A DNA stretch of 38,503 bases, taken from Acidobacteriota bacterium. Lineage in GTDB: Bacteria > Acidobacteriota > Polarisedimenticolia > SMYD01. Made by a program: the position numbers and the translations under genes. Positions 7,107-35,389 of the stretch are shown here, piece by piece. The DNA is taken from NCBI GenBank assembly GCA_004356015.1, contig SMYD01000006.1, forward strand, positions 1 to 38,503, read 5' to 3'. How positions within the stretch are numbered: the stretch's first letter is position 1; every line of letters begins with the position of its first letter. The notes below the pieces were generated by a model. The model had not been told where the DNA came from. It worked only from the letters and a program-made list of their open reading frames with translations, and searched no databases.

Positions 7107-7115
7107 GAGCCGTGA

Positions 7116-7421: not shown

Positions 7422-7423
7422 CC

Positions 7424-14079: not shown

Positions 14080-17000
14080 CTAGTTTTCCGCCTTCAGAAC
14101 ACCCAGCAGAGGGGCTCTGAAAGCGCTGCGCACGGCTGCCAGGCTGGAAAGGAGCCCCACGGCGACCACCAGGCCAAGAGTCTGCCCCAGGGACCACCAC
14201 GGCAGGACCAGATCCCCGGCCAGGAGGCGCGGCGCCAGCGACAGCAACGAGGCCCCGCTGCCCAGGGCCACCCCCAGGAACAGAAGAAATGCGGTCTCGG
14301 CCAGGATCATGCGCGCCAGACGCCGGCGCGAGAAACCGAACGCCTGCAGGGTTGCAAGTTCTCCCCGCCGTTCCAGCACGTTGCGCAGCAGGACGATGCC
14401 CAGCCCGAGGGTTCCCAGGAGCAGCCCGAAACCGCCCAGGGTCTGAAAGGTGGACAGGTAGGTATTCTGTACGGCCTGGAAGGCGGCAAGGCGCTGCCGG
14501 GTGGCGACCACGTCCATCCCGAAGCGCGTCAAACCGGATTCGAGGGCCGCGGCCACCTCACCAGTAACGGACGGCGGCGCGTTGATGAGAAAGTAGCCAT
14601 ACCCGGAGCGACTCGGGAAGTGGCGAAGAAAGTTTTCCTCGGAGATGAGGAGTTCGCTCTGGAACACACTGCCGCGGAGGAGCGCCACAATGCGCAGACG
14701 CAGGGTCTCCCCGGCTTCATTCTGCATGACCAGATCCTGGCCCAGTCCCAGGTGGAGAATCCACTGCACCGAAGCGGCATCGCCGGCCGCCGCAATCACA
14801 CCCGGTTCCAGCTCACCCTCCAGGAGGGACCAGGGATCGTTCGTCTCGGAGAGGGTCTTCTGAAAGACAAAGTCACTGCGCCTCGCCAGGGACGGAGGGA
14901 CACCCAGGAGACGCGGGGCGCCGGGAGCGTAGAGATTGAGGCAACTGGCATCGCTGCCCGGACGCAGGCGGAAGGACACCACCTGGGCGTCATCCAGGGC
15001 GGCCGCCGCCTGACCACCCAGGCCCAGTTCAAAGCGGTCCCCCGGGTCGTTGAGATCCTGGTACAACGGCACGCTGCTCTCCGCCAGCAGGGCGAACCCA
15101 CCCGCACCGGGAGGCGGTTGCCCCTCCTGGCCGCCGCTCTCCAGCCGGTTTGCGGCGACGGTGATGACGACGAAGGTGGCGCAGGCCACCAGGGCCATGG
15201 AAAGGATGGAGCGCCCCGGGCTCCAGGAGCTGTTACGGGCCGCCATGCCCGCCAGGGACAGGTTCCCCACCCCGCCGGGCCGCTCGTGGCGCCGGCACCA
15301 GCGGGAGAAGAAGGCCAGGCCCGCCATGAGCAGGCCCGCACCGGTCCCGAAGGAGAGTCCCGGCGATGAACTCTGTCCGCTGAGCACGGCGGTTGCCGTG
15401 AGTCCCACGGCCAGCAGCAACCCGCCCCACGCCATGGCCAGAGAGATCCGTCCGCCCGGTTTCGTAGCCTGGGGACCCACCGCTCCGGCCAGGAGAGCCG
15501 CGACGGGGCGCCGGGACACACGGCGCAGGGTCAGGAATACGGCCGCCAGGGTGACCAGCAGGGCACCGGCCGCGCCCATCACGAGAGTCGGCCAGGATAG
15601 ATGAAGGAACAGGCGTGACGAGCCGATGGCCGGACGCCAGATGGTCCTGAGAGCTGCCATGAGTGCGGCGGCATAACCCACACCCAGCCCGGTGCCGGCC
15701 ATCACTCCGGCCACGGCCAGCAGTGCGGCCTCAGCCAGAAAACGGCGGCGCACCCGTGCCAGGGAGTAGCCCAGCGCCAGGAGCAGGCCTATCTCCCTGG
15801 AACGCCCTTCCACGCCCAGGCCGAACAGCAGGCTGACCAGCATGGCCGCCGAGACGATCAGAAAGAGGCTGAACCCCAGGAAGAGCTGGCTGAAATCGGT
15901 CGCCCCTCTGGCGCCGGCGACCCCTTCGGCCCGCACTGCCCGGAAGTTGTAGCCGTAGGGCGCCAGGTCGATGTGGTGCAGGATGGACTGTTCAAGGGCA
16001 TCCAGACCGTCGCCTCCATCCGGCAGTCCCAGGCGGATGCTGGTGAGATGGCCGTAACGCGTGCTCCACATGTCTCTTGCCGCGGCGATCGCGAAGAACG
16101 CCTTGGGGACACCCCGGTACTCATCCCAGTAGGCCTCGTCCCGGGGCCGAATCCGATCGAGCTCCACCGGGAAGGGCGGATCCCATTCGGAGATGTGCTT
16201 GGCATCGGCGATTCCCGGATAGTCGGGCGTGAGACCCGGATCCATGGCCAGGCCGTTCTCCGCCAGGATTCCGGCGACGGTGAACTCCCTGCTCTCGACG
16301 TCCAGAGCCTCGTTGTCCCGCACCACAAAATAATCCATCTTGACCCTGGTCCCCACCTCCGCCTGCAGATCGGCGGCGGCCCAGGCTCCCAGCAGAATCT
16401 GGTCAGGCTGGAGATCCGGTGCCGGACGGCCGTCGGCCAGGAGCAGGGGGAGGAACGGCGGCGCGGCGGCCGGCCCGCCGATGGCAGTGACCGTGGAATA
16501 GGGCACCTGGCGGTCGCCGGATCGCAGGGTGTTGGCCAGGTAGGTCTGCACCGGCCTCAGCGGCAGGGCAAGGTCCGCCGCGGCAGCCTTCACCGCTTTT
16601 TCCACATGGGGGCGGAGGACAAACTCGCGGCTCTGGAGCGCCACCACATCCCCCTGGCGATGCAGTTCCAGATCCAGATCCGAGAGGGTCATGGCGGCCC
16701 GCAGCAGTGTCCCGGCCGAGGCCACGGCAGCCGCTGCCTGCGCTTCGTCTGCCATGTCGCCCTGCCCGTCGCGTCCCGACAGGAACAGGCTGTTGGCCTG
16801 CGAAGGACGATCCAGGCGGCGCTGCAACTCACCCAGGTCCATGAACAGGTTCAGGGGTGTCCCCTGGTGGGGTGTCAGTCCGAAACGCCCGGCGCCCGTG
16901 TCGGGAATCACCTCGGCAAGGATCAGCCGCAGGCGGCCTGTGACTTCTTCCGGGGCGCGCCGGCCCAGCAGCGTCTCCCGGGGAATGGCATCGAAGCGCG

Positions 17001-17469
17001 CGAAGGAGACGATCAGATCGTCGCCAACCTGGGCATCCAGTTCGGCGGCCAGGGCAGCATTGATGATGGCGGCAGGCTGTCGCCCGGACTCCCGCGGCGG
17101 AATGGTGAACCCGGCCCCCACCATGTCCAGGAAGCGGTGATCCACGCCCAGGATCTTGACGCGTGCGGCGAGACGCCCACTGCCGGCGTGGGCTGCCGAG
17201 CCGTCCAGATTGATGGCCGGGACAGCCTCATGGAACTGGGTGGAAAATCGCGCCTGGCCGGCAAGGTCGCCGGCAAGATCTTCACGGAAGAAGCGCGGCG
17301 ACACCAGAGCAAGGTCCACGTCCCCCAAGCGATTGACGGCCAGATCCTGCAGGCTGCCCCGGACCGAATCGCCCATGAGCAGAGCCCCGGTGAGAACCGC
17401 CGTCACCACAGCCGTGGCCAGGACCACGGCCAGGTGGCTGCGCCGGTGATAGATCAGGCCGCGGAACAC
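14080..17469 (-). CDS. ABC transporter permease with two FtsX-like domains
   Basis: 1129 residues. One N-terminal span (about 14-34) is followed by a large periplasmic domain of about 480 residues. A first FtsX-like group of spans follows ([35 protein letters not shown]), then several central spans, a second extracytoplasmic part, and a C-terminal FtsX group ([31 protein letters not shown]). The cytoplasmic [11 protein letters not shown]-type loops are typical of MacB/LolCDE superfamily permeases, which drive extraction or export of lipoproteins and large molecules rather than import. It overlaps the ATPase gene upstream by 16 bases. Lipoprotein sorting or export of the cluster's product are both possible; the substrate cannot be read from sequence. 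Confidence 0.85.
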
Positions 17470-18137
17470 CGGCCTTCCACCAGCTGGAACCGGCGCGTGA
17501 AGCGTGCCGCCAGATCCGGGTTGTGGGTGACCACCACCAGGATGTTTCCCTCCCGGCGATGCATGTCCAGAAGCAACTGCCCCACTGCAGAGGCATTGGC
17601 CGTGTCGAGGCTGCCAGTGGGCTCGTCGCAGAGAAGCAGGCGCGGCCCGTTCATCAAGGCCCGGGCCACGGCGGTGCGCTGCCGTTCACCGCCGGACAGC
17701 TCGGCCGGACGATGGTGCAGCCGGTGCCCAAGGCCCACATCTTCCAGCAGCCCCCTGGCCCGCCCCTGGGCGTCGGCCGGGGGACGCCCCAGGGCATAGG
17801 CTGGCAGAAGCACATTCTCGAGGACGGAATACTGGGGCAGCAGATGGTGATCCTGGAACACGAAGCCGATGATGCGGTTGCGAAACAGGGACAGTTCTTT
17901 CGGGTTCATCTCGGCGGGCCGCCGCCCATGGATGGCGATACTGCCGCTGGTGGGCCGATCCAGGCCGCCCAGCAGATGAAGAAGGGTGCTCTTTCCCGAA
18001 CCCGATGGGCCCATGATGGCAACCGCTTCGCCCCCCGCCAGTTTCATGGTGACGCTCTGCAGGACATCCACGGTGCCGGCGGCACCGGAGAATGATTTGC
18101 ACACATTCTCAACGACAACACCCTCGCCGCCGGTCAC
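17454..18137 (-). CDS. ABC transporter ATPase, MacB/LolD type
   Basis: 227 residues. Walker A (GPSGSGKST, from residue 43), Q-loop (VFQDHHLLP), signature LSGGERQRTAVARAL, Walker B with catalytic glutamate (LLLCDEPTGSLD) and the H-loop histidine (VVTHN) are all intact. The small size and DEPTGSLD wording are typical of the LolD/MacB/FtsE group, which pair with FtsX-type permeases like the one downstream. The open frame extends further upstream, but the GTG at 18137 overlaps the thioesterase stop as GTGA and gives the normal length for the group. The N-terminal extension would lie inside the thioesterase gene. Confidence 0.92.
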   Translation of the reverse strand: MTGGEGVVVENVCKSFSGAAGTVDVLQSVTMKLAGGEAVAIMGPSGSGKSTLLHLLGGLDRPTSGSIAIHGRRPAEMNPKELSLFRNRIIGFVFQDHHLLPQYSVLENVLLPAYALGRPPADAQGRARGLLEDVGLGHRLHHRPAELSGGERQRTAVARALMNGPRLLLCDEPTGSLDTANASAVGQLLLDMHRREGNILVVVTHNPDLAARFTRRFQLVEGRCSAA

Positions 18138-18571
18138 GACCCGGACCCACCGCCGTCCAGGCGGACGGACAGTTCCTCGGGAATGGGAATGGCGGTGAAG
18201 CGACCGTCGGGTTCGATGACACAGCAAACCGAGGTCATTTCGCCGCAGGCGACTTCCTCATCTCCGCGCCGCAGAACAAAGGCATAGGTCATGGACGTCC
18301 TGCCGCACCGCACAACCGTCACCTCGATCTGGATCTGGTCGCCGAAGACGAGAGGGCGGCTGTAGCTGCAGCGTGCCGACACCCTGGGCCAGCTCACCCG
18401 CTTGCCCTGGATGCGCGTGTCCACGTCGATCCCCCGGGAGGCCAGAAACTGGTGTTCCGCCGTCTCCATGAAGATCAGATAGCGCGAAAAGTGCACCACG
18501 CCACCGCTGTCGGTATCGGCGAACTCCACTTGCCGTCGCGTCACGAAATGCTCCACGCCGCCTCCCTTCAC
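18134..18571 (-). CDS. Hotdog-fold acyl-CoA thioesterase (4HBT/YbgC type)
   Basis: 145 residues. The stretch VEFADTDSGGVVHFSRYL carries the 4HBT active-site aspartate and glycine-valine-histidine pattern, with the following METAEHQFL helix. Such enzymes hydrolyse acyl-CoA or acyl-carrier-protein thioesters. It is coupled by 4-base overlaps to the glycosyltransferase upstream and the ABC ATPase downstream. An acyl-thioesterase in a run that also holds a LuxE-like acyl-activating enzyme and an acyl reductase may be part of the same pathway; it could also be a housekeeping YbgC-like protein. Confidence 0.87.
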   Translation of the reverse strand: MKGGGVEHFVTRRQVEFADTDSGGVVHFSRYLIFMETAEHQFLASRGIDVDTRIQGKRVSWPRVSARCSYSRPLVFGDQIQIEVTVVRCGRTSMTYAFVLRRGDEEVACGEMTSVCCVIEPDGRFTAIPIPEELSVRLDGGGSGS

Positions 18572-19881
18572 ATCCCTGTTCCCGGTGTCATGGCATTCAC
18601 CAGGCCATGGTAGATCTTGACGGTGCGCTCGGCCATGAGCCGATCGTCAAACAGCTCCCGGACCGACTCCCGGCCCTTGCGTCCCATCTCATGACGAAGC
18701 CGGGGGTCATCCTGAAGCTCCATGAGAGCCCGCACCAGGTCTCCCGGCTGGTCAGGAGCATAGAGGAGGCCGCCACCGGTGGCAGCCAGCAGCTCCGGAA
18801 ACGCGCCATGATCCGGCTGCACCACCGGTGTGCCGTTGGCCAGGGCTTCCAGAACGAAAAGCCCCTTGGGTTCGTGGTAGGGCGTGGGCACGGAGAGGAC
18901 ATCGAGGTTGCCGAGGAATTCGATCTTGGTCGGCCGATCGATTTCACCCAGAAACTCAACCTCCTCCTCCAGCCCGGAATTCCGGACACGGGCCTTGATT
19001 TTCTCGAGATAGGCGCGGTCCCGCCCGCCCAGATACCCCGCCACGCGCAGTCGCACCGCCTCAGGCCCCCGGGACCGGGCCAGTTCCACGAAGGCCTCCA
19101 CCAGGAGGTGCAGCCCCTTCTCGGGACAGATCCGCGCCAGGTAGCCGATGGTGAACGGGCGATCCCGGGGTACCGGGCGCGGCCCCCCATGCCCTTCCAT
19201 GTGTAAACCCAGGGGCACGTGATGAACCCGGTCCCTGTCCACTCCCAGCATGTCGGCCATGACCCCGGCATAGACCGAACTGGGCGCGATGAAGGCGTCG
19301 ACATCCATGGCCCGCCGGCGCAGAAGATCATGCACTTGCTCCTGGTACGGCTCGACCAGGCCCTGCAGAAAGATCTCCTCTCCCTGCAGCGAACAGACCA
19401 GCGGCACCTTCAACTCCTGCCGCAGGCGCCGGGCAAACCCCAGGAGCAGCGAGTTGGAGAGATGCACCACATCCGGGCGGTAATCATCCCGCAGCCAGCG
19501 GACCAGTTCGTCCAGTTCCCGGGCCTGATTGCCGTCTTCCCCCCGCAGCATGGACACGGTCAGGTCGCCCAGAAAACTCGCGTCGATGTTGGCATCGCCC
19601 CGGGCCAGCAGTTTGATCACGCCGGGTCGATTCAGGAAACCGGTGAGGGCCGCCGGCAGGTGGCGATAGAGCCGGCTGCGCTGTCGGAGAAAGACATTGA
19701 GTGCGCCGAAGAAGACCCTGGGGCCGCTGACGTCCTCCTCATCGGTGCGCATGGGTGTGTAGATGGGAATCAGCGCCACGTCGTGTCCCTGGCGCATGAG
19801 CGCCCCGGCCAGCGTATTGTCATGCAGGCATGCACCGCAGAGCATGCCGCCGGCACCCGGGCTGATGTGGGCAATTCTCAC
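18568..19881 (-). CDS. Glycosyltransferase family 4 protein
   Basis: 437 residues with a GT-B fold. The N-terminal domain opens with VRIAHISPGAGGMLCGACLHDN, a variant seen in a GT4 subgroup of Planctomycetota, Verrucomicrobiota and Acidobacteriota. The C-terminal domain has the nucleotide-sugar site with the E-x7-E pattern in EPKGLFVLEALANG and the preceding GYLARICPEKGL. The frame stays open 1.5 kb further upstream across the symporter gene, but that portion is not protein-like. GTG at 19881 overlaps the symporter stop as GTGA. It probably transfers a sugar to a lipid, polysaccharide or small molecule; donor and acceptor are unknown. Confidence 0.88.
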   Translation of the reverse strand: MRIAHISPGAGGMLCGACLHDNTLAGALMRQGHDVALIPIYTPMRTDEEDVSGPRVFFGALNVFLRQRSRLYRHLPAALTGFLNRPGVIKLLARGDANIDASFLGDLTVSMLRGEDGNQARELDELVRWLRDDYRPDVVHLSNSLLLGFARRLRQELKVPLVCSLQGEEIFLQGLVEPYQEQVHDLLRRRAMDVDAFIAPSSVYAGVMADMLGVDRDRVHHVPLGLHMEGHGGPRPVPRDRPFTIGYLARICPEKGLHLLVEAFVELARSRGPEAVRLRVAGYLGGRDRAYLEKIKARVRNSGLEEEVEFLGEIDRPTKIEFLGNLDVLSVPTPYHEPKGLFVLEALANGTPVVQPDHGAFPELLAATGGGLLYAPDQPGDLVRALMELQDDPRLRHEMGRKGRESVRELFDDRLMAERTVKIYHGLVNAMTPGTGM

Positions 19882-21350
19882 GGCTGCCTTGCCTGGGGGA
19901 AGAAACGTGCGAGCACCTCGTCGCCTGGAGGGCGCGTGACCAGCGAAACGGATACCAGGGCGAGGGTGGAGGCACCCAGCAGGATCACCACAGGCATGAG
20001 ACCATCCTGGGCCCACGGGAGACCACCGGCCCTCTGCTCGGAGACGAACAGATAGATCCACCCGAAAGCCACGGTGAGGACAGCGGCGATGGCGCCGGAA
20101 CGTGTGGCCCGCCGCCAGAAGAGGGCTCCGGCCATGAGCGGAAAGAGGGCGGCAAAGCCGGTGAAGGACCAGATGCCCAGACTGAAGATGCTGGGGCGGG
20201 TGACCAGGCTCAGGACATAGGTCACCACCAGAATCCCCACCACGAAGAGGCGCCCGGCCAGCACCTGGCGCTGTTCGCTCATGCGGCCGTGAAACCCGAA
20301 GTGGCGCACGATGTCCTGGGTGAACATGGTCCCCAGCGACAGGACCTGGGAATCCAGAGACGACATGACCGCGGCAAAAACCCCCGCGCCCAGAAGGCCG
20401 GCCATGACGCCCGGCGCGTAAAGGTTGATCATCTTGACCAGCACGGCGTTGGCGGCCGGCCCCTCGAGACCGGGAATCGCCACCCTTCCCAGTACCCCCA
20501 GGAGGACACTGGGCACCCAGACGATGGCCACGAACAACGGGTAGGCCACCACGGTCAGACGAAACGACGATGCCCGGCGCGCTGTCAGCCAGTGCATGAA
20601 GATGTGCGGGAACATGGCCACCGACAGGGGAATCAGGGTGAAGCTGAGGAGTTTCAGCGGTGGGATCTCCGGCCCCCGCACCAGCAGCTCCGGCGCGGCG
20701 GCGCCCACGGCGTCCAGAGCCTGGGAAAGTCCGCCGGCGCGGTCCACGATGAGCACGAAGGTGACCGCCCCCAGAACCATGAAGACCAGGGTCTGAAACA
20801 TATTGGCCCACGCCGTCCCCCGCAGACCGCCGGCGGTCACGTAGGCCAGGACCACGGCGCAGATGAGCAGGCTGCCTGCCCATGCCGGCACCTGGCCGGA
20901 GGTGATCTGAGCCATGGCGATACCTCCACCCATGACACCGATGAGCAGGTAGGGCACCAGCAGGGCGGTCAACACCACGAAGAGCAGCAGGCCAAGGGTG
21001 TCCGATTGAAAGCGCTCCCGGAAATACTGCACCTGGGTCAGAAAGCCGTGATGGCGGCCCAGGCTCCAGACCCGGGGCGCCATCAGGAAGATCACCGTCG
21101 GCACCACCAGCGCTGAGGATGAGGCCATGAGGGCGAAGACGCCCACGCCGGTTCGATACGCCTCCCCGGCTGCTCCCAGCAGGGAGAACGCGGTCATGTG
21201 GGTGCCGAACAACGACATGAGCAGCAGGAACGGTCCGATGGTCCGGGTGGCCAGGAAGTAGTCCTCGCCAGTGCCCCGGAAAAGGCGATGGCTGAGCAGG
21301 CCGATGGCCAGAACCAGGGCCAGGTAGACGAGGATCACCGCCAGGGTCAT
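19878..21350 (-). CDS. Sodium:solute symporter (SSS family)
   Basis: 490 residues, about thirteen membrane spans. The N-terminus (LAIGLLSHRLFRGTGEDYFLATRTIGPF) carries the DYFLA-R pattern of the sodium:solute symporter family, and FAAVMSSLDSQVLSLGTMFTQDI matches the conserved helix near the second sodium site. It imports a small solute with sodium; the substrate is not evident. It overlaps by 4 bases the small membrane protein upstream, a common pairing for this subgroup, and the glycosyltransferase downstream. Confidence 0.92.
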   Translation of the reverse strand: MTLAVILVYLALVLAIGLLSHRLFRGTGEDYFLATRTIGPFLLLMSLFGTHMTAFSLLGAAGEAYRTGVGVFALMASSSALVVPTVIFLMAPRVWSLGRHHGFLTQVQYFRERFQSDTLGLLLFVVLTALLVPYLLIGVMGGGIAMAQITSGQVPAWAGSLLICAVVLAYVTAGGLRGTAWANMFQTLVFMVLGAVTFVLIVDRAGGLSQALDAVGAAAPELLVRGPEIPPLKLLSFTLIPLSVAMFPHIFMHWLTARRASSFRLTVVAYPLFVAIVWVPSVLLGVLGRVAIPGLEGPAANAVLVKMINLYAPGVMAGLLGAGVFAAVMSSLDSQVLSLGTMFTQDIVRHFGFHGRMSEQRQVLAGRLFVVGILVVTYVLSLVTRPSIFSLGIWSFTGFAALFPLMAGALFWRRATRSGAIAAVLTVAFGWIYLFVSEQRAGGLPWAQDGLMPVVILLGASTLALVSVSLVTRPPGDEVLARFFPQARQP

Positions 21351-21577
21351 GCATCCCCTCCCCGGGAATCGTCATCATCCAGCCCCCGGGGCCAGGCGAA
21401 CGCCGCGGCCAGAGCCATGATCAGGGTCGCGGCCACGCACAATCCCACATGCCAGGTCAGGCTCGCCGGCAGTCCCAGGACCCGCATGTCGCTGGACGCC
21501 AGCCAGTCGTCATGGCGGAGAATGAAGAGAGCGGCCATGGCGGCCACCAGCAGGACACGGATCCCGCGGCCCTTCAT
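21347..21577 (-). CDS. Small membrane protein paired with the symporter (DUF3311-like)
   Basis: 76 residues with two spans (about 6-20 and 42-62) and an acidic tail (DDDDSRGGD). The pattern of a short loop with GLPASLTWHVG before the second span resembles the DUF3311 proteins encoded beside sodium:solute symporters. ATG at 21577 overlaps the flavoprotein stop and its own stop overlaps the symporter start, so the three are translationally coupled. It is probably an accessory subunit of the transporter. The family call rests on size, topology and context. Confidence 0.75.
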   Translation of the reverse strand: MKGRGIRVLLVAAMAALFILRHDDWLASSDMRVLGLPASLTWHVGLCVAATLIMALAAAFAWPRGLDDDDSRGGDA

Positions 21578-22863
21578 GTCGCAGAAGTTGAAAGGCTCAG
21601 CGGCCGGTAGTCCTGCAGCGGCGACCAGTCATCCAGAAGTTCGATGATGCCGCTGCAGTCCCGGCGGTAGACATTGCCCACCAGGAGGTTCACCAGGTCA
21701 ACGCGGGCTTGCGGGTACCGGCGCAGGAACCTGGCGAAACTGAAGTCTGGGTCGTAAAAGGCGTAGACCAGACGGCGAAGGGCTTCCACTCCCGCCACGA
21801 ACTCTTCACCATGGCGTCCCAGACGGGCACCGCTCAGATCGTCCGCCGCCAGAGCGTCGTGGATGCTGTCGGCGGCGTACTCGGCGGACTTGAGCGCCAG
21901 AAAGACACCTGAGGAATAGATGGGATCGAGAAACCCGAAGGCATCCCCTGCCAGCACCCAGCCATCGCCGGCGATCCTGCTGGAGATGTAGGAGAAATCC
22001 CGCAGGACCTGCACGGGCCCCTCCTGGACCGCCCCCTGCAGACGCTCCTCCAGGGGCGGACAGAGAGCCCGCTCCTCGGCGAAGACCTCCCGGGCAACCT
22101 TGCTGCGCCCTTTGAGGAGGTAATCGATGTGACCCACCACGCCAATACTCATCAGGTCATCAGGCAGCGGGATGGACCAGAACCAGGACTCGCCATGCTT
22201 TGTACGCAGGATCAGCGTGGCACCGGCGTCCCGGCCGCTGTCCCGCGCACCGCCACGAAAACGGGTGAAGTACGAGATATGGCGCAGCCGAGAGTCCATG
22301 ACGCGCAGGCCCAGACGCCGGGCCACGAGTCCGTTCTGCCCGCTGGCGTCGACCAGCACCCGGGCCTGCAGCGGACGCTTGGCACCGTCGCCACCGGTGG
22401 TCTGCACACCCACCACCCTCTCCCCTTCCATGAGGAGACCGGTCACGTTGATGCCGGTGCGCACCTCCACGCCCTTCCCGGCGGCGTGGTCCAGGAGCAT
22501 CTGATCAAACGGCGCCCGATCCACCTGCCAGGTGACGGCACTCTCACCCTGCTCCACCTCGTCAAAATAGAAAGGCAGGGCGCCCCGACCGCTGGGCGCA
22601 AAGAAGCGGACACTCTCCTTCTTCACGAACGGGCCGGAGTGCATCTTCTCCAGGATGCCCAGACGCTGAAAGGTCCAGTAGGTGGCGGGCATGAGGGACT
22701 CGCCGATGCGGTAACGCGGGAACACCTCCCGATCCAGGAGCAGCACGTCCCGGCCTTTCATGGCCAGGAGGGCGGCGGTGACCGACCCGGCCGGGCCCCC
22801 TCCCACCACGATCACATCCCTCTCTGTCCGTGAGAGCATCTCCTGGGGACTCCCGGCCGTCAC
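21574..22863 (-). CDS. FAD-dependent oxidoreductase, flavin halogenase-like
   Basis: 429 residues. Residues 17-30 carry the Rossmann FAD motif VIVVGGGPAGSVTA, and GWVLAGDAFGFLDP (301-314) is the second FAD motif. Two features point to the flavin-dependent halogenase group rather than plain monooxygenases or geranylgeranyl reductases. W227-F-W229-S-I-P232 fits the WxWxIP motif, and K81/K82 in PFVKKESVRFF lies at the position of the catalytic lysine (K79 in PrnA). Halogenases form hypohalous acid that reacts with this lysine, but the wider family also holds epoxidases and reductases, and no carrier or reductase partner is adjacent. It overlaps its neighbours on both sides by 4 bases. Confidence 0.8.
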   Translation of the reverse strand: MTAGSPQEMLSRTERDVIVVGGGPAGSVTAALLAMKGRDVLLLDREVFPRYRIGESLMPATYWTFQRLGILEKMHSGPFVKKESVRFFAPSGRGALPFYFDEVEQGESAVTWQVDRAPFDQMLLDHAAGKGVEVRTGINVTGLLMEGERVVGVQTTGGDGAKRPLQARVLVDASGQNGLVARRLGLRVMDSRLRHISYFTRFRGGARDSGRDAGATLILRTKHGESWFWSIPLPDDLMSIGVVGHIDYLLKGRSKVAREVFAEERALCPPLEERLQGAVQEGPVQVLRDFSYISSRIAGDGWVLAGDAFGFLDPIYSSGVFLALKSAEYAADSIHDALAADDLSGARLGRHGEEFVAGVEALRRLVYAFYDPDFSFARFLRRYPQARVDLVNLLVGNVYRRDCSGIIELLDDWSPLQDYRPLSLSTSAT

Positions 22864-24092
22864 GAATCCGCAGAGAGGTCGAAGGCCACCAGTTCCTCTT
22901 CGTCCCGCACATACAGCCGCCCGTGGCTGAGAGTGGGCATGGTCCAGGTCTTGCCGTCCATGGGCCTGGTCCGGCCGGTTTCCCGGTACCCCTCAGGCGT
23001 CGCCTCGGCCACGGCCAGTTCGCCCTTCTCGCTGAAGATGAACAGATGCCCGTCGGCGACCAGGAGAGACCCCTTGGCAAAGCCGCGCTGCTTCCACTTC
23101 TCCTCACCAGTGGCGCCGTCAATGCACTTCAAGGTGCCGTCGTCGAATCCGTAGAGGAATCCGTCCAACAGGACCGAGCTGTTGAAATGGTTCTTCATGA
23201 CCCGGCTGCGCCAGACTTCTTCGACCTTCCAGGCATCTCCCTTGCCGCTCACCTGCAGAAGGGCGGCACCGGTGTCGTACCCCGAGGAGATGAAAATACG
23301 ATCGGGCGCCATGAAGATGGGCATGGCGGCGTTGATGTTGTAGGAAGTCTTCCAGGGCAGGCTCCAGAGAGCCTTGCCCGAATCGGGAGCCACCGAGACC
23401 AGGGCGGTGCCGGTGAAGAACAGGACCTGGCGCGTGCCGTTGATGGTCACCGCCAGGGGGGAAGAATAACCGGTCTTCTGATCGCCGGTCCCCCAGGCGA
23501 CCTCCCCGGTGTCGCGCTTGAAGGCCATGAGATTGCGCGAGTCGCTGCCGCCCACTTCCAGGATGACCAGGCCATCCTCCACCAGAGGTGACGCGGACGA
23601 ACCAAAGTGAGGCAGTTTGGCGTCGAACGCCTCCTCCAGGTCGTGCTCCCAGACCATCTTCCCGTCATGGGCCTTCACCGCCACCAGGCGGCCCCTGGCG
23701 CTGAGTGCGAAGACCAGATCGCCATCCACGGTGGGCGTCGAGCGCGGCCCGTTACCATGCCCCTCCTTGAAGCCCTTTCCCAGAACCACCCTCCAGATTT
23801 CCCCGCCGTCTCCGGCGGCCAGACACACCAGACGGGCCTCTCCGTCCCGGGCGTACATGGTGTAGAGACGATCCCCCACCGCGGCAATTCCCGAATACCC
23901 CTCCCCCAGGGGCGCCCGCCAGAGTTCCGGGGGACCCGACGCGGGCCATGTGGTCAACAGACCGGTCTCAAGGGAAAGACCGTCGCGCTCCGCGCCCCGG
24001 TACTGGGGCCAGTCATGGCCGGCGTCACCGGCCAGCGTGGTGGCCAGGGTCAATCCAGCCAGCACAGCACAGGTCATCAGATAGCGCTTCAT
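22860..24092 (-). CDS. Secreted PQQ-like beta-propeller protein (410 aa)
   Basis: 410 residues with a Sec signal (MKRYLMTCAVLAGLTLATTLAG). After DWPQYRGAERDG come repeated units of the W-docking type (CLAAGDGGEIWRVVL, AVKAHDGKMVWEHDL, AFKRDTGEVAWGT, SVAPDSGKALWSLPW, CIDGATGEEKWKQRG), giving a seven- or eight-bladed propeller. There is no vicinal Cys-Cys pair and no obvious catalytic domain, so a true PQQ dehydrogenase is unlikely; such proteins bind partners or ligands in the periplasm. It is one of four propellers in this run and lies between the radical SAM gene and the flavoprotein, overlapping the latter by 4 bases. Confidence 0.88.
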   Translation of the reverse strand: MKRYLMTCAVLAGLTLATTLAGDAGHDWPQYRGAERDGLSLETGLLTTWPASGPPELWRAPLGEGYSGIAAVGDRLYTMYARDGEARLVCLAAGDGGEIWRVVLGKGFKEGHGNGPRSTPTVDGDLVFALSARGRLVAVKAHDGKMVWEHDLEEAFDAKLPHFGSSASPLVEDGLVILEVGGSDSRNLMAFKRDTGEVAWGTGDQKTGYSSPLAVTINGTRQVLFFTGTALVSVAPDSGKALWSLPWKTSYNINAAMPIFMAPDRIFISSGYDTGAALLQVSGKGDAWKVEEVWRSRVMKNHFNSSVLLDGFLYGFDDGTLKCIDGATGEEKWKQRGFAKGSLLVADGHLFIFSEKGELAVAEATPEGYRETGRTRPMDGKTWTMPTLSHGRLYVRDEEELVAFDLSADS

Positions 24093-24117
24093 ATCACGTG
24101 CCTCCAGGAGAAAAAGA

Positions 24118-25419
24118 TCATGTGTAGCGAATATTGCGAAAGGCCGGGGCGTAAAAAGACGGCAGCAGGTGATCCACCTGCAGCAGGCCGGCGCGTGTGA
24201 GAGTGATCCCCGACGATGTCACTCCGGCCAGGCCACGCTCCTTGAGATCGTCCCAGACTTCAGACCAGTGGTCAACGATATCGATACCGAATTTATTGTG
24301 GAAGTAGGCCGGATCGAGGCCGCCCATCTTGAGTTGCAGGATCACCTCCCTGGTCAGGCGATCCTCGGGGCTGGTGGCATAGGCCCGCTCGATGGGTAGT
24401 TCGCCCCGCTCGAGCCCCTGGAGATACGGCTCCCAGCCGGAGACATTCTGGAAGTGCACGCCGTTGACATGGGAGAACGACGCCACCCCGGTCCCCAACA
24501 GGTCAGCACCGTGCCACAGGGCATCCCGATAGACAAAGCGGGAGCCGGCCCCTTTCAGCACCGTGTAGGCGCTGGAGATCCTGTAGCCGGCGGCCTCCAG
24601 GCGTTCATACGCATGGTCCTGCCAGGCCCGGCGCGTCTCCCAGTCGGCCACCGGGACCGGGTCACCGTTGTCCAGAACGCGCCGGGAATAGACCGTATTG
24701 AAAGGCAACTCCATCTGATAGATGGTGACACTGTCGGGTGCCACTTCCACGGTGCGGCGCACCGTGTCTTTCCAGGTCTTCCAGGTCTCCCCCACCATGC
24801 CGGCGATGAGATCGATGTTGAGCTGATCAAATCCCTGGGCCTCGATCCAGGGCAGGACCCGGTAGATTTCCTCAGACAGGTGGGCGCGACCGTTCTCCGC
24901 CAGGATGTCGTCATTGAAATTCTCTACACCCAGGCTCAAACGTGTCACGCCGACACCCCGGATTGACCGCAGCTTGGCCTCGCTGATGGTGCCCGGCTCA
25001 CACTCGAAGGTGATCTCCCTGGCCTTGTCCCAGGGCAGGGACTCGGTCACGTTGGCCACCAGTTCCTCCAGGAGGCGGCTGGAGAGATAGGAGGGCGTGC
25101 CACCACCGAAATAGACGAAGTTCAGCGGCCGCCCCTGAACCGCCGGACGGGCAGCCAGAAGCTGCGTCTCCCGGGTGAGGGCCGCCAGGTAGCGGCGCAC
25201 GCCGGCGCTGTCCTTCTCGGTGTAGATCTTGAAGTAGCAAAACTTGCACCGCTTGCGGCAGAAGGGAATATGCAGGTAGAGGCCAAGGGGCACACCTTCC
25301 GCTCCAGGGCTGTCCAGAGCGCGACGGGCTGCGTCCACCTGCCCTTCGCCCCACGCCGAATAGGGCGGGTAGTTGGAGACGAAGACGCTCCCGACATCTT
25401 CTTTTTTCACGTCAGCCAT
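24118..25419 (-). CDS. HemN/HemW-like radical SAM protein
   Basis: 433 residues. LHIPFCRKRCKFCYF holds the [4Fe-4S]/SAM cysteines C54, C58 and C61, and NFVYFGGGTPSYLSSRLLEEL is the SAM-binding glycine motif of the HemN superfamily. The C-terminal third (TREVILQLKMGGLD, LTRAGLLQVDHLLP) resembles the HemN C-terminal domain. Members include coproporphyrinogen dehydrogenase, the heme chaperone HemW, and class C methyltransferases and cyclopropanases of natural-product pathways. The setting between propellers and beside a halogenase-like flavoenzyme favours a biosynthetic role; that is inference. The start at 25419 gives an 8-base overlap with the gene upstream; a longer frame lies inside that gene. 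Confidence 0.88.
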   Translation of the reverse strand: MADVKKEDVGSVFVSNYPPYSAWGEGQVDAARRALDSPGAEGVPLGLYLHIPFCRKRCKFCYFKIYTEKDSAGVRRYLAALTRETQLLAARPAVQGRPLNFVYFGGGTPSYLSSRLLEELVANVTESLPWDKAREITFECEPGTISEAKLRSIRGVGVTRLSLGVENFNDDILAENGRAHLSEEIYRVLPWIEAQGFDQLNIDLIAGMVGETWKTWKDTVRRTVEVAPDSVTIYQMELPFNTVYSRRVLDNGDPVPVADWETRRAWQDHAYERLEAAGYRISSAYTVLKGAGSRFVYRDALWHGADLLGTGVASFSHVNGVHFQNVSGWEPYLQGLERGELPIERAYATSPEDRLTREVILQLKMGGLDPAYFHNKFGIDIVDHWSEVWDDLKERGLAGVTSSGITLTRAGLLQVDHLLPSFYAPAFRNIRYT

Positions 25420-26602
25420 CTTGCACGTCTTTCTCGACTTTCTCTGCTCTCGCTTCGCCGGCCCCAAAACAATAGAGCATGCCATCCAGCGTCCCGATGA
25501 CCATGCGCCCTCCAGCCACAGCCGGTGACGCAATGACCGAAGAGCCTGTGGCAAACTCCCAGACTTTCTCGCCGGACCTGAGGTTCAGGCCCACCAGGTC
25601 ACCGCCCATGGTCCCGAAATAGACGGTCGGCCCGGCGATGACCGGCGATGAATCGACCCGTGAGCCGGCGGCATGGGTCCAGACGGCATGACCCGTTTCC
25701 GGATCCAGGGCATGGACAAGCTTGTCCCGGCCACCGATGACGACCCTGTCGGCACTGAGTGCGGCGGAGGAATAGAACGGGAAGTGACGCTCCGGATTCG
25801 CGTAGGCCCACACGACCTTCCCCGCCACCAGATCGATACCCAGAACCTGGTTCTCGAAGGTGCCCACGAAGACCAGACGGTTGCCCACGGCAGGGCTGCC
25901 CCCGACATAGGCATCGATCCCCACCGTCACGACATCGCTGCCGTCGCGCGGGTCCAGCCCGCGCAGGAGACCGTCGCAACCCGCCACGAGCACAACCTGG
26001 CGCTCTCCCAGCCGTGCCACTGCTGCCGTGCCATAGATATAGGATCCGGTCTCGACCTTCCAGACCAGTTCACCGTTGTCGGGATTCAGGGCGTAGAGGA
26101 AATTGTCCTGAGAACCGAAGATGACCCGGCCACCGGCAAAACTGGCCGAGGCGATGACACCGCCGTCAGCAGCAAAGGTCCATTTCACCTTGCCCGCGGC
26201 GGCGTCCACGGCGTGAAAGATCCCGGACTCGTCGCCGAAATAGACAATGCCCTTGCGCACGGTGGGCGACGATTTGATCTCGTCGCCGGCTTCATAGGTC
26301 CAGAGCAGCTTGCCGCTGTTGAGGTCCAGGGCGTGAAGTTCGCCGGCCAGTGAGCCCACATAGACAACGCCGTCCACCATGGCGGCCGTGGATTCAATAC
26401 CGTCATCTGCCTCGAACGTCCACAGCACGGTAAGATCGGCCGGCAACGACTGTGCCGCCGCGCCGGTCAGCCGGGCATCGCCGCGAAAGGAGGGCCAGTC
26501 GTCACCGGCCGCCGCCCAGGCAGGGTCCATGGCCGCCCCGGGGAGGAGTATCAAGGCGCCATACAGAAGGCCATAGTTCAGGTTGGTACGCAGGGCCATC
26601 AT
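25412..26602 (-). CDS. Secreted PQQ-like beta-propeller protein (396 aa)
   Basis: 396 residues. A signal peptide (ending near AWA-A) precedes DDWPSFRGDARLTG and about eight very regular blades of about 40 residues, such as ALDLNSGKLLWTYE, AVDAAAGKVKWTF, ALNPDNGELVWKVE, GIDLVAGKVVWAYA, ALDPETGHAVWTHA and GLNLRSGEKVWEFA. This is the repeat of BamB and quinoprotein dehydrogenases. It lacks a vicinal disulfide and any cytochrome domain, so it reads as a binding or scaffold protein. It starts one base after the alcohol dehydrogenase stop and overlaps the radical SAM gene by 8 bases. The second codon is also ATG. Confidence 0.88.
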   Translation of the reverse strand: MMALRTNLNYGLLYGALILLPGAAMDPAWAAAGDDWPSFRGDARLTGAAAQSLPADLTVLWTFEADDGIESTAAMVDGVVYVGSLAGELHALDLNSGKLLWTYEAGDEIKSSPTVRKGIVYFGDESGIFHAVDAAAGKVKWTFAADGGVIASASFAGGRVIFGSQDNFLYALNPDNGELVWKVETGSYIYGTAAVARLGERQVVLVAGCDGLLRGLDPRDGSDVVTVGIDAYVGGSPAVGNRLVFVGTFENQVLGIDLVAGKVVWAYANPERHFPFYSSAALSADRVVIGGRDKLVHALDPETGHAVWTHAAGSRVDSSPVIAGPTVYFGTMGGDLVGLNLRSGEKVWEFATGSSVIASPAVAGGRMVIGTLDGMLYCFGAGEARAEKVEKDVQDG

Positions 26603-26603
26603 C

Positions 26604-27809
26604 TCAGGCGGCTTGCCGGTAGAGTTCGAGCAGATCCGCCGCCGTCACCGGGCGAGGGTTGAATCCTGCTGTCCACTGGCGGGCGGCTTCCTCCGCCATG
26701 GCAGGCAGAGACGAGGTATCCACTCCGGCATCCGCCAGGGTCGCGGGCAGGTGGCACGCCTCGCGCAACGCCTCGACGCGCGTTGCCAGTTCATGGGGCG
26801 AGGCGGCGGTCATGCCGGCCCTCCTCTGCAGATCCGCGTAGGCCGCGGCGATCATCTCGCCATTGAAGCGCACAACATGGGGCAACATGAGCGACACCGC
26901 AATCCCATGGACAATGCCGTGGCGGGCGGTCAGGGGATTGGCACAGGCATGAGCCGCGCCCAGCATGCCTCGATCGATCCCCGCCCCGGCCAGGTGAGCG
27001 CCCCACAACATGCCCGCCCGTGCCGCCTCACCTGCGGACTCGCCCAGGGCCGGTGCAAGTTCCGTGGAGAGCAACCGCCAGGCTTCCGCCGCGAACATCC
27101 TTGCCGTGTCATCGGCGGGGAGCGACACGAAGCTCTCCACCGCGTGGGCAACCGCATCCATTCCGGCCACGGCGGCCACACGGCGTGGCACACTGACCAG
27201 AAGCCCGGGGTCGAGGATCACGGCACGGAAGCGGGCCTTGTCATCGCCGCAGGCCATCTTCTCCTTGTCGGCCGCCCGGGCGATGAGAGCGTAGGCCTGC
27301 GCCTCACTGCCGGTGCCTGCCGTGCTGGGCACACCCACCGAATCGAGCATGGGAAGGGTGGCGCGATTCGTACCGCGATAATCCTCCATCTCGCCACCGT
27401 TGGTCAGGATGAAATTGATCCCCTTGGCGCAGTCCAGGGAGCTGCCGCCCCCCAGTCCCACGATAAAATCGATCTTCTCCCGCCGCGCCATCTCGACGCC
27501 GGCGGCCACATGCAAGGTTGTGGGATTCTCTTCCACACCGGAGAAAACAGCGACGGCCAGGGATTTCTTCCTGAGAGCCGACCGGGCCCTGTCAGCGTGC
27601 CCTGCCTTCACCAGCCCCGGGTCGGTCACCACCAGGACCCGCGTGCCGCCCAGATCCTTGACCAGGGAGCCCAGGGCTTCCAGCCGGCCCTCGCCAAAGA
27701 GGACCCGGGTGCCGTTCACCTGGCTGTCCCACGGCGCCTCGTCAAGGCCGGGAAGCCTGCCCGTTGCTGTCGCCCGGCGAGGGACAGGCGGCGGCATCTC
27801 GCCGGTCAT
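26604..27809 (-). CDS. Iron-containing alcohol dehydrogenase
   Basis: 401 residues. The NAD site GLGGGSSLDCAKG (about 118-130) and the metal ligands D218, H222, H287 and H301 match the spacing of the group III iron alcohol dehydrogenases such as FucO. These interconvert an aldehyde and an alcohol with NAD(P)H. The long open frame extends 48 codons upstream inside the preceding gene; ATG at 27809 overlaps that gene's stop (ATGA) and fits the family length. Directly downstream of an acyl-reductase-like gene and a LuxE-like gene, it would reduce the resulting aldehyde to an alcohol, or run in the oxidative direction. Confidence 0.92.
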   Translation of the reverse strand: MTGEMPPPVPRRATATGRLPGLDEAPWDSQVNGTRVLFGEGRLEALGSLVKDLGGTRVLVVTDPGLVKAGHADRARSALRKKSLAVAVFSGVEENPTTLHVAAGVEMARREKIDFIVGLGGGSSLDCAKGINFILTNGGEMEDYRGTNRATLPMLDSVGVPSTAGTGSEAQAYALIARAADKEKMACGDDKARFRAVILDPGLLVSVPRRVAAVAGMDAVAHAVESFVSLPADDTARMFAAEAWRLLSTELAPALGESAGEAARAGMLWGAHLAGAGIDRGMLGAAHACANPLTARHGIVHGIAVSLMLPHVVRFNGEMIAAAYADLQRRAGMTAASPHELATRVEALREACHLPATLADAGVDTSSLPAMAEEAARQWTAGFNPRPVTAADLLELYRQAA

Positions 27810-29251
27810 GCGGCAGCACTCGCGGCGGAGGCGGGATTCTGGAAGGCGCGGCGGTGGTAGAGAAGCTCGAAGAGATTTCCCTCGTGGGGCTGATCCCATG
27901 AAACCCTGCCGGTGGGGATGGAGCCCAGATTCAACCGCTCGATGTGCCGGCATTCCATGGCGGCGCCGGCGAAGCGATCGTCGCCGGTGAGCACCGTGCC
28001 CACAAGGGTCGGGCCTATGAGGTCCAGCAGATCGGCCGGCGGGACTTCCACATAGGCGGCGAAGGGAAAGAGCAGCTCAGCACGGGCCAGCGCGTGGGCC
28101 GGATCGGTACAACGGATCAGGGTGGGACGGAGGAAAGCCAGACCATCCATCTCGACCACCCTGCCATCCTTGTAATAGGGGGCGGTGAGATCCTCCGCTC
28201 CCGGCGCTTGCAGATGATCGTCGATGAAATCCGAAATTCGTCGCGCCACCTGCACGTCACCGAATGCCGCCAGACGCGCATCCGGATGGTCCAGCGGCAG
28301 CGGTTCCATGGCTGCCAGTTTCTCCGCCAGAGCCTCCGCCAGACCCGGCGCCCTGCCACCGACCCACACGCCTGAGGCGTTGACGCACGATCGACCCCCG
28401 TTATCGGCAATCGATGCGGCCATGAGCTCGACGTGGTCTTCCCACCTGGAGATCTGATCGGGAGCCAGCAGGACCTTGCTCTTGCCGGGACCGTGCAGCT
28501 CGATGCGGCGATCATGGAGCCACGGCTTCACCGTGGCGGCATCCCCGAAGAAGAGCGACCGATGGCAGCGGCTCAGGATCTCCGTAGCACCGGCATAGTC
28601 ACTTGGATAGAAGCTGAGTGCCTCCGGGGGGCAACCCGCGGCCAGGAACGCCTGAATGACCCGGAAAGGTGTCCACGGCTCCTGGCGGCCTGGCCGCAGC
28701 ACCAGCGGCACCTTCATGGCCACAGCCGGCAGCCAGAGGGCGTGCACTCCCGGCGAATTGCTGGGCAGCACCGCGCCCAGCATGTCGGCCTGGCTCAGAT
28801 AGCTCACCGGACGCTGGGCGTTACCGTTCCACCCTTCATCCAGGACCGACAGGTCGAGGCCGCGGGTCAGGCCCATGAGAATCCGCTCCATCTCCGCCAG
28901 GACAAAACGAATCTTCTCCATATTGCGATGACACAGGGCGCGAGGCACACCGGTGGTGGCCGACTGGATGGCCACGAATTCATCCGGCCCCTGCATGACG
29001 TCTCCCATGGGCAGGCGGCCGGTCATGAACAGATCGGCGGCACGCCGGGACATGGAGATCAGTTCCGAGACAGGCCGTTCCGCCAGGATCTGCCGGTTGT
29101 GACGAGCATCGAGGATGAGATCCCGGGCGATGAGACCCGGGTTGGCCTGGCTGACCAGGGCAACCGTCTCGCCGGTTCCCACATGCTTGAGCTGGATGGT
29201 ATCCAGGCTGAGATACGGCTTGCCCCCGCGGAGAACGGGCAGGTGCAGCAT
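27806..29251 (-). CDS. Aldehyde dehydrogenase-fold acyl reductase (LuxC-like)
   Basis: 481 residues, the size of LuxC. The ALDH-fold cofactor region begins near VLPSNSPGVHALWLPA (161-176). The general base E251 lies in ELHGPGKS and the nucleophile C289 in NGGRSCVNAS, with the usual spacing, so it looks catalytically competent. LuxC enzymes reduce an acyl group delivered by LuxE to an aldehyde; related acyl-CoA reductases use acyl-CoA. Its start overlaps the LuxE-like stop by one base (TGATG), supporting a joint acid-to-aldehyde reaction. An ordinary aldehyde dehydrogenase acting in the oxidative direction is the alternative. Confidence 0.8.
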   Translation of the reverse strand: MLHLPVLRGGKPYLSLDTIQLKHVGTGETVALVSQANPGLIARDLILDARHNRQILAERPVSELISMSRRAADLFMTGRLPMGDVMQGPDEFVAIQSATTGVPRALCHRNMEKIRFVLAEMERILMGLTRGLDLSVLDEGWNGNAQRPVSYLSQADMLGAVLPSNSPGVHALWLPAVAMKVPLVLRPGRQEPWTPFRVIQAFLAAGCPPEALSFYPSDYAGATEILSRCHRSLFFGDAATVKPWLHDRRIELHGPGKSKVLLAPDQISRWEDHVELMAASIADNGGRSCVNASGVWVGGRAPGLAEALAEKLAAMEPLPLDHPDARLAAFGDVQVARRISDFIDDHLQAPGAEDLTAPYYKDGRVVEMDGLAFLRPTLIRCTDPAHALARAELLFPFAAYVEVPPADLLDLIGPTLVGTVLTGDDRFAGAAMECRHIERLNLGSIPTGRVSWDQPHEGNLFELLYHRRAFQNPASAASAAA

Positions 29252-30330
29252 CAGTAGACTCCCACCACGACCGAGGTCTTGAGAGAGGAGAGGAGGCCCA
29301 GATTGCTGACCCCGTCCCACGGGAACTGCTCGCAGGGTGCCGCCCTCTCGCCTTCGTCTCGCTCCGCGAAGCGGGGCATGAAAAATTCTCTCGTCAGCGT
29401 CGTCAGGAGAACCCGCCCGGTGGCTCCGTAGGGCACCGTCTCATCCAGGTTGTCGGGGTTGACGATTTCAAACACCGCCCGGGGCAGCGGCGGGTAATAG
29501 ATGATGGCGTAGTGATCTGCCGGGTCGTACGCCTTGGCGACGGCCAGGCCCATGAGGGTGTTGCCGTAGGTGGGCACGAAATCGATGCCGGGAGCCAGTT
29601 CCTCGCGCACAAAGCGGTTGAACTGGGCCGTCATCTCGGTCCCCCCACAGAAGATGCCGGTGAATCCCAGCTTCCCCAGGGGACAGCGCTGGGAGAGGGC
29701 ATCCAGCAGCTTGGGGGTGGTGAACAGGCACTTGATGTTGGGATGGGCACCCATGATCTTCATGGCCTGATCGATCACGTGGTCCTTGTAGGCCTTCATC
29801 TCCTCCCAGGCCTGGCGCTTGACCAGGTTGTTGACCCAGCGGGGATCCAGATCCACGAAGAAGCACATCCCACCGCGATACTGGGCCAGGTGCTCGATGG
29901 CCAGGCGCAGGCGGCGGGGGCCGGTGGGTCCCAGCATGAGCCAGTCGGACCCCTTGGGAAACCCCTCGTCGGAGAGTTGATCGCCGAACGCTTCATAGTC
30001 GACGCGAAAATCGTTGATGTTGATGCGAGTCTTGGGAACCCCTGTGGAGCCGCCGGTTTCGAACACGCACAAGGGCTGCCCCTGGAGCCCTCTGGGCAGC
30101 CACCTGCGCACCGGCCCGCCCCGCAGCCAATCATCCTGGAAATGCCCCAGCTTCTTCAGATCGTCGTAACCCTGGATCGTCTTCCGTGGGTCAAAGTCCA
30201 TCTTCTGCGCATAATTCAGCCAGAATTCGCAGCCCGTGTCGGGATTGAAGTGCCACTGCACAATCTCACGGACGTGGGCATCCAGCCGTTGGCGCCCGGC
30301 GGCAATCTCTTTCTCCAGGGAGGCATCCAT
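29251..30330 (-). CDS. LuxE/PaaK-like acyl-protein synthetase
   Basis: 359 residues. ETGGSTGVPKT (91-101) is the AMP-binding P-loop of adenylate-forming enzymes, and FCGGTEMTAQF (228-237 region) and VPTYGNTLMGL (252-262) match the later core motifs of the LuxE/PaaK group. The length fits LuxE (about 370), which lacks most of the mobile C-terminal domain of acyl-CoA ligases. LuxE activates a carboxylic acid with ATP and holds it on a C-terminal cysteine; C333 is a candidate. The longer open frame upstream runs into the preceding propeller gene; ATG at 30330 gives the family-length protein. It is the first enzyme of the acid-aldehyde-alcohol trio. Confidence 0.85.
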   Translation of the reverse strand: MDASLEKEIAAGRQRLDAHVREIVQWHFNPDTGCEFWLNYAQKMDFDPRKTIQGYDDLKKLGHFQDDWLRGGPVRRWLPRGLQGQPLCVFETGGSTGVPKTRININDFRVDYEAFGDQLSDEGFPKGSDWLMLGPTGPRRLRLAIEHLAQYRGGMCFFVDLDPRWVNNLVKRQAWEEMKAYKDHVIDQAMKIMGAHPNIKCLFTTPKLLDALSQRCPLGKLGFTGIFCGGTEMTAQFNRFVREELAPGIDFVPTYGNTLMGLAVAKAYDPADHYAIIYYPPLPRAVFEIVNPDNLDETVPYGATGRVLLTTLTREFFMPRFAERDEGERAAPCEQFPWDGVSNLGLLSSLKTSVVVGVY

Positions 30331-30355
30331 GGTGCTCTCTTTCGTGGCGCTCACC

Positions 30356-30369
30356 GGCCGACACCGGCC
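30356..30369. terminator. Small hairpin in the gap before the luxE-like gene
   Basis: GGCCG-ACAC-CGGCC forms a 5-pair, all-GC stem with a 4-base loop in the 46-base gap after the propeller gene, the longest gap inside the leftward run. No T-run follows on the minus strand. It might slow transcription or set mRNA stability between the propeller pair and the enzyme genes. Confidence 0.2.
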
Positions 30370-30376
30370 AGAATCT

Positions 30377-34056: not shown

Positions 34057-34235
34057 TCCCGAACGTCTCCTCCGCGCCCCATGCGATCCTGGGCGCGCCA
34101 GTCACCTTATCGTCCGCACCTCACCTTGCGACCGACAACCTTCTCAGGTCGAAGGCGTTACCCACGATTGACAGAGCGGACCGGCTACGAACGCGAAGGT
34201 TACTACAAGGGCCCGGCCCGGCGGCGAGAACTGCT

Positions 34236-34252
34236 GTAAAGTGTTGTAAAGA
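34236..34252 (+). repeat. Ten-base-phased direct repeat, possible activator site
   Basis: TGTAAAG at 34236-34242 recurs at 34246-34252, one helical turn apart, within an AT-rich patch of a GC-rich region. It lies about 50 bases upstream of the -35 box of the TAXI-TRAP promoter. Helically phased direct repeats are typical of response-regulator or other tandem-binding activator sites. Confidence 0.35.
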
Positions 34253-34298
34253 TAAGAGAAGGCTGACCTCTTTCTTGCATGAATCAGCTTTCCGGCCG

Positions 34299-34327
34299 TT
34301 GACAGCACCACTCTTCCTCTTTAGCGT
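34299..34327 (+). promoter_or_regulatory. Promoter of the TAXI-TRAP operon
   Basis: A perfect TTGACA (34299-34304) is followed after 17 bases by TAGCGT (34322-34327, 3/6). The start of transcription would be near 34334, which leaves the first ATG (34336) almost leaderless and favours the second ATG at 34357, preceded by GAGGA. Confidence 0.5.
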
Positions 34328-34356
34328 AGGCCGCCATGAAGAAACGAGGAAACACC

Positions 34357-35379: not shown

Positions 35380-35389
35380 AGATTTCGGC

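Follow-up and report, generated by a model that had tools for sequence, protein, structure and literature searches.

The window analysed here is a stretch of 38,503 nucleotides from the draft genome of an Acidobacteriota bacterium (2.73 Mb, 92% complete). It carries on its minus strand an open frame of 429 amino acids (21574-22863, GTG start) for a flavin-dependent halogenase-like protein. Sequence, predicted fold and tree position give good support for reading this protein as a variant-B-type flavin-dependent halogenase and not as a geranylgeranyl reductase, and judged from the tree it belongs to a new clade within a known enzyme class. Genome by genome, this clade is coupled to an EhpF-like enzyme, an association that is well supported by the observed distribution. 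We propose, at about an even chance of being right, that the halogenase is a dedicated step of a carrier-free, cross-phylum aromatic pathway, in which a hydroxybenzoate-type acid would be halogenated and its carboxyl then reduced.

Motifs, fold and phylogeny of the halogenase-like protein

The halogenase start overlaps the 3' end of the upstream propeller gene by 4 nt. Translation could instead begin at an in-frame ATG at 22839, and the predicted model is of low confidence for residues 1-11. The protein contains a GxGxxG flavin-binding motif (residues 21-26), Lys82, WFWSIP (227-232) and FLDPIYSSG (311-319); the roles of these motifs are taken as given in the accessible part of PMC12871659. An earlier note on this DNA had pointed to WFWSIP and to a catalytic-lysine position at K81/K82, and both are present. 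In the alignment of the window protein with its relatives from 80 loci, K82 is Lys in all 81 sequences, whereas K81 is Lys in just 38 of them, so that the proposed lysine position holds for K82 and not for K81. The FxxPxxSxG tunnel motif is an additional halogenase motif that was absent from the earlier note.

The 80 loci were retained out of 95 relatives and had been found with six peptide patterns. Two of these, KHGESWFW and FGFLDPIY, overlap the W and F/P motifs, and the conservation of W227, W229 and P232 (81/81), of I231 (80/81) and of F311, P314, S317 and G319 (81/81) is therefore partly ascertained. K82 is overlapped by none of the six patterns. Residues G21, G23 and G26 of the flavin-binding motif are each kept in at least 95% of the 81 sequences. 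K82 shares its alignment column with the Lys of FasV (8zop), CndH, PltA, Mpy16 and the C-1027 halogenase, the last of which is annotated as a tryptophan 7-halogenase and is presumably SgcC3. E. coli FixC also has a Lys in this alignment column, and hence the lysine by itself is not discriminating; the W and F/P/S motifs are. The first four of these halogenases share WxWxIP, FxxPxxSxG and the Lys with the window enzyme.

Profile comparisons point in the same direction. Pfam Trp_halogenase matches the window protein with 98 bits (cut-off 21), and the best NCBIfam match is the CmlS halogenase model with 192 bits, far below its equivalog cut-off of 900. We built a profile, A2, from 52 of the 81 aligned rows, leaving out the locus L057 on account of a stop codon within its sequence. 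Against PDB sequences, A2 scored highest with FasV (334 bits), CndH (303), PltA (300), Mpy16 (288), ChlB4 (280) and CmlS (270). Among the non-halogenases, the geranylgeranyl-reductase-like 3oz2 reached 106 bits and FixC 84 bits; the distant halogenases CtcP (131 bits) and PltM (110 bits) lie barely above 3oz2. An AlphaFold2 model based on the same alignment had a pLDDT of 92.6. Foldseek ranked known halogenases and the uncharacterised 3nix at the top, and the best ten VIA-align matches (Z 38.8-50.6) were nine known halogenase entries and again 3nix, while monooxygenases and reductases followed at Z values of at most 36.0. PltM and CtcP were not among the best 50 VIA-align rows. The predicted fold resembles FasV, Bmp2, PltA, Mpy16, CndH and CmlS over nearly the whole chain at about 30% identity.

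The tree was calculated from 39 rows, including 16 of the 81 halogenase rows and 19 of the 23 reference rows (L024, L025, L027 and L029 were left out, having been trimmed in a wrong frame). It contains several long branches. The 16 orthologues form one group with a support of 86/99. FasV, CndH, PltA, Mpy16 and the C-1027 halogenase share the orthologues' side, and FixC and the geranylgeranyl-reductase-like rows, which have neither the W nor the F/P/S motif, are found on the opposite side of a split supported by 94/91. In this phylogeny against halogenases and reductases, a comparison that the earlier note had suggested, the protein is thus placed outside the reductase clade. L030, a long branch without the Lys and the F/P/S pattern, also falls on the halogenase side. 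Two further partial halogenase-like ORFs were seen in the window's genome (G000), on C145 (L002) and C148 (L003), both at contig ends; the one on C145 is a long branch in a separate clade together with other genomes of the phylum. Taken together, motifs, tree, profile scores and fold back the halogenase reading that the earlier note had raised. Its second suggestion, an epoxidation, is spoken against by WxWxIP and by the tree position.

The operon around the halogenase gene

The halogenase gene lies in a run of minus-strand genes that abut or overlap from 34056 to 18134, the widest gap being 46 nt, before the EhpF-like ligase gene. The apparent first gene of this operon encodes a PQQ-type beta-propeller with a C-terminal extension (PQQd, 31840-34056) and is followed by a second PQQ-type propeller gene (PQQc, 30377-31840). 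Then come the genes for the EhpF-like adenylating enzyme, a protein of 359 amino acids of the ANL superfamily (29251-30330), for an ALDH-superfamily protein that is acyl-reductase-like by position (27806-29251), and for an iron-type alcohol dehydrogenase (Fe-ADH, 26604-27809, start chosen by hand). The invariant Cys of NGGRxC is present in the ALDH-type protein and kept in its 10 aligned members. Between these genes and the halogenase gene are encoded a propeller of the ACSF4 type (PQQb, 25412-26602; PF13570, 249 bits, cut-off 133), a HemN-like radical-SAM protein with a CxxxCxxC motif (24118-25419) and a PQQ/BamB-type propeller (PQQa, 22860-24092), whose N terminus appears signal-peptide-like by eye. 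Downstream, a small DUF3311 membrane protein of 76 amino acids (21347-21577) overlaps both the halogenase gene and the gene of a sodium:solute symporter family protein (19878-21350) by 4 nt each. A GT4 glycosyltransferase (18568-19881) and a hotdog thioesterase of the 4HBT/YbgC-like type (18134-18571) complete the run. Next to it, on the same strand, are genes for an ABC transporter ATP-binding protein (17454-18227, the real start probably lying further in) and for an FtsX/MacB-like ABC permease (14080-17469).

The earlier note had stated that the run contains no polyketide or peptide synthetase, and this holds for the scanned window genes. A carrier protein was likewise not seen among the scanned operon genes, nor does the stretch from 34056 to 18134 offer space for a carrier gene; since the DUF3311 gene fills the space between halogenase and symporter, no carrier is hidden there. 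The free substrate considered in the earlier note is consistent with an operon of this kind, although a carrier may be encoded elsewhere in the genome. No phenazine genes were seen among the scanned window genes, and a scan for tRNA genes was negative. A consensus scan of 18000-35000 returned one promoter-like site (2.2 in shuffled sequences) and 16 terminator-like sites (8.7 in shuffles, sd 3.3).

The ligase profile had a single PDB match, EhpF (3hgu), with an E value of 2.3e-57 over positions 14-364, so that the likeness covers nearly the full length. EhpF stems from a phenazine operon, in which EhpF-O convert phenazine-1,6-dicarboxylate to D-alanylgriseoluteic acid, according to the accessible part of PMC3175449. 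A label of the neighbours as fatty-acyl LuxC/LuxE enzymes was rejected, as the ligase profile matched EhpF alone and the Pfam scans gave no match to LuxC or LuxE. The acyl pathway of the earlier note is supported in part: ligase and reductase were not recognised as fatty-acyl enzymes, and the evidence points to an aromatic acid. A defence system was discarded as well, none of three proteins giving a match. Identity with the NCBIfam PLuB system is not favoured: there was a 16-bit match, and the PLuB PQQ-repeat protein NF040673 turned up in none of 16 halogenase genomes, with the control genomes silent too.

Outside the operon, at 25-3135 and 4803-8675, we observed a fused molybdopterin-type/Fe-S protein that is QrcB/QrcC-like below the cut-offs, with cytochrome oxidase subunits I and II encoded close by on the opposite strand. 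A TAXI-type solute receptor and a fused TRAP permease (34336-37345) are divergent from the operon.

Co-occurrence with the EhpF-like enzyme and distribution across phyla

We compared the presence of the halogenase and its partners genome by genome. In the window's phylum, 60 genomes were searched (that of the window and 59 others), and 29 of them match the halogenase at 1e-20. The clade itself was found in 11 of the 60, its limit having been defined after the scores were seen (E of at most 1.4e-124, the next genome being at 2.6e-70). Exactly the same 11 genomes were recovered with the EhpF-like profile (E <= 1e-30) and with the radical-SAM profile (E <= 1e-100). In one of them (G054, L057 on C16) the halogenase orthologue has an in-frame TGA, although this genome also encodes the radical-SAM and EhpF-like proteins.

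In Planctomycetota the halogenase (E <= 1e-80) was found in 32 of 118 genomes, and the EhpF-like enzyme in exactly those 32 after six weak matches had been set aside: 38 genomes pass 1e-60, the six excluded lie at 1e-63 to 1e-69, and the weakest one kept is at 3.9e-102. In many of these genomes the searches for halogenase, EhpF-like enzyme and lyase-like protein scored part of the first-look candidates. The two genes need not be neighbours, and in six Planctomycetota they are located on one contig at a distance of 1.3-4.5 Mb in linear coordinates. Simple counting gives chances of 3e-12 (11/60) and 1e-29 (32/118) for such exact matches; these values are far too small, because related genomes share ancestry and are not independent. 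The agreement in two phyla is a better argument for coupling than the counting statistics. Among 40 halogenase genomes that were chosen, except for L037, because their fetched locus was ligase-free, the ligase is present in 32 and had no match in eight.

According to record titles, the 80 loci belong to Acidobacteriota, Planctomycetota, Verrucomicrobiota, Poribacteria, Latescibacterota, KSB1, Gemmatimonadota and one Deltaproteobacteria, and complete or partial versions of the cluster occur in at least six phyla. The nearest named relative, L033 (Acidobacteriota), is 86% identical in the halogenase and has an identical cluster order. We labelled the genes of the loci by our own clustering, with family scans covering few of their proteins, and by these labels the partners recur as radical SAM (32 loci), symporter (26), GT4 (25), thioesterase (24), ALDH-type (17), ABC (15), Fe-ADH (14) and EhpF-like (13). 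At least three partner genes are found in 38 of the 80 loci and at least one in 51, leaving 29 loci with no partner gene nearby, and several of these loci span 21 kb. Of the five neighbours scanned in one such locus (L041), four match secretion or pilus families and the fifth matched nothing.

Other gene contexts were also seen. In L076 (5557-9211) the genes for lyase and halogenase come after one that resembles squalene-hopene cyclase and one for a fusion of polyprenyl synthetase with DUF116; the Planctomycetota loci L077, L079 and L084 share its gene clusters, the family scan having been run on L076 alone. A halogenase homologue on an Azospirillum ramasamyi plasmid (L151, 8971-10284) is 37% identical and differs in context from the window's clade. 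It lies beside ketosynthase, FabG, MMPL and LolA-related genes, which we read as an aryl-polyene-like cluster.

A candidate aromatic pathway and its alternatives

In its clade (86/99), its fixed partner and its spread over several phyla the window enzyme is unlike the known variant-B-type halogenases named above, and no PKS, NRPS or carrier protein was found among its scanned neighbours. The recurring set of aromatic-acid enzymes points to an undescribed, widely conserved pathway whose product would be a small aromatic compound carrying a halogen. Among the matches listed from the open literature, no title or beginning of an abstract describes this gene set. A word search of the accessible parts of PMC8269204 and PMC12871659 gave no mention of Acidobacteria or Planctomycetes.

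The link to a hydroxybenzoate-type acid comes from a chorismate-lyase-like protein that is encoded in 23 of the 32 halogenase-bearing Planctomycetota and in none of the 86 others; the remaining nine of the 32 are without it. In Verrucomicrobiota loci the lyase-like gene precedes the halogenase gene. The fold of this family (alignment A1) is closest to the DUF98 protein AF1396 (2nwi, Z 17.0), with further matches to UTRA regulator domains (Z up to 12.8) and to E. coli UbiC (Z 11.7). A Pfam scan of lyase-like members recovered no family, giving one weak unrelated match (E 0.024). With hhalign, the family aligned to UbiC at E 5.6e-7, placing M35, R77 and L115, which we take to be substrate contacts of UbiC, on the invariant M93, R121 and L161. 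The lyase-like partner of the other phyla thus shares its fold and three positions with the UbiC/DUF98 chorismate lyases; it was not found in the genome of the window. Together, the EhpF-only match of the ligase and the tie of the lyase-like protein to the halogenase in Planctomycetota and Verrucomicrobiota point to an aromatic acid, and for these two phyla a hydroxybenzoate-type substrate is moderately supported.

Relatives of the lyase-like protein, at about 30%, are encoded on Azospirillum plasmids as well (seven records). In the one stretch examined the relative lies near pabB, and no halogenase was present there. On the Azospirillum argentinense plasmid (L150, 8887-9477) it is annotated as hypothetical, and a single gene separates it from pabB and a class IV aminotransferase gene, which is once more a setting of chorismate metabolism.

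We infer the chemistry of the enzyme, the halide, the substrate, the order of steps and the product as follows. FADH2 from a reductase encoded elsewhere would react with O2, the resulting peroxyflavin would oxidise chloride or bromide, and Lys82 would relay the hypohalite to an electron-rich ring. The substrate would be a free hydroxybenzoate-type acid, with chorismate as its source in organisms that have the lyase-like partner. The EhpF-like enzyme would then adenylate the carboxyl of the halogenated acid, and the ALDH-type protein followed by Fe-ADH would reduce it to a benzylic alcohol. This alcohol might be processed by the radical-SAM protein and GT4, and the product could be moved by the ABC, symporter and, at some loci, TonB components. 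What the product is we can only guess, and the proposal leaves the roles of the propellers, the radical-SAM protein and GT4 unexplained. The Bmp5/Bmp6-type and 3,5-dibromo-p-anisic acid pathways lead from chorismate via 4-hydroxybenzoate to a halogenated ring, which is the same logic as proposed here. To our knowledge, these pathways are sporadic and come without the set of EhpF-like enzyme, reductase, Fe-ADH and radical-SAM protein.

A true halogenase might also act on a different substrate, another aromatic acid or a lipid-like one, in which case the lyase-like protein would be a lineage-specific feeder; in phyla other than Planctomycetota and Verrucomicrobiota, its place is taken by a TonB receptor or by a second ligase. 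We consider this possible, if rather improbable. The lyase-like gene is found in 0 of the 60 genomes of the window's phylum, including the window's own, which is 92% complete. Directly upstream of the halogenase, 25 of the 80 loci have the lyase-like gene, 13 a TonB receptor gene and seven the gene of a PaaK/FlxY-like ligase. Moreover, the planctomycete Alienimonas chondri makes an ester of 4-hydroxybenzoic acid and a chlorinated fatty acid for which the genes are unknown, according to the accessible part of a review (PMC12078418). However, the constant partner is the EhpF-like enzyme, whose sole relative of known structure comes from an aromatic pathway, that of a phenazine, and among the 118 Planctomycetota the lyase-like gene was not found outside the halogenase genomes.

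That the protein is instead a flavin monooxygenase, a hydroxylase descended from a halogenase with its motifs retained, seems to us quite unlikely. It would fit with an overall structural resemblance to class A hydroxylases, p-hydroxybenzoate hydroxylase included (Z of about 35), and with a pathway that may require a further phenolic OH, such as is found in quinone-type cofactors. Yet WxWxIP and FxxPxxSxG are both retained, the nearer halogenases score much higher by profile and by structure, and the model of the flavin monooxygenase QhpG (NF049967) reaches 129.7 bits, under its cut-off of 240. A geranylgeranyl-reductase-like prenyl reductase is scarcely credible, as the 132.6 bits obtained with TIGR02032 fall below the curated cut-off of 158.8 and the tree sets the halogenase apart from the reductase-like and FixC rows, in which the W and F/P/S motifs are missing.

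Returning to the proposed aromatic pathway, one can go a step further and imagine a halogenated, or cryptically halogenated, hydroxybenzyl compound as a quasi-core diffusible redox shuttle or cofactor, not an antibiotic, of lineages in Planctomycetota, Verrucomicrobiota, Acidobacteriota, Poribacteria, Latescibacterota and Gemmatimonadota. After export it would switch between its acid and alcohol forms, with the propellers acting outside the cell and the EhpF-like enzyme, reductase and Fe-ADH inside. We regard this extension as a long shot.

Flavin-dependent halogenases are usually sporadic tailoring enzymes of antibiotics. If our proposal is true, enzymatic halogenation would be part of the conserved physiology of major, largely uncultured groups. 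The weight of this comes from the two sampled phyla, in each of which the halogenase clade and one constant partner enzyme were found in exactly the same genomes. The named strain Limnoglobus roseus PX52 (L081), in which halogenase, EhpF-like enzyme and lyase-like protein are all present, provides a directly testable handle on the product.
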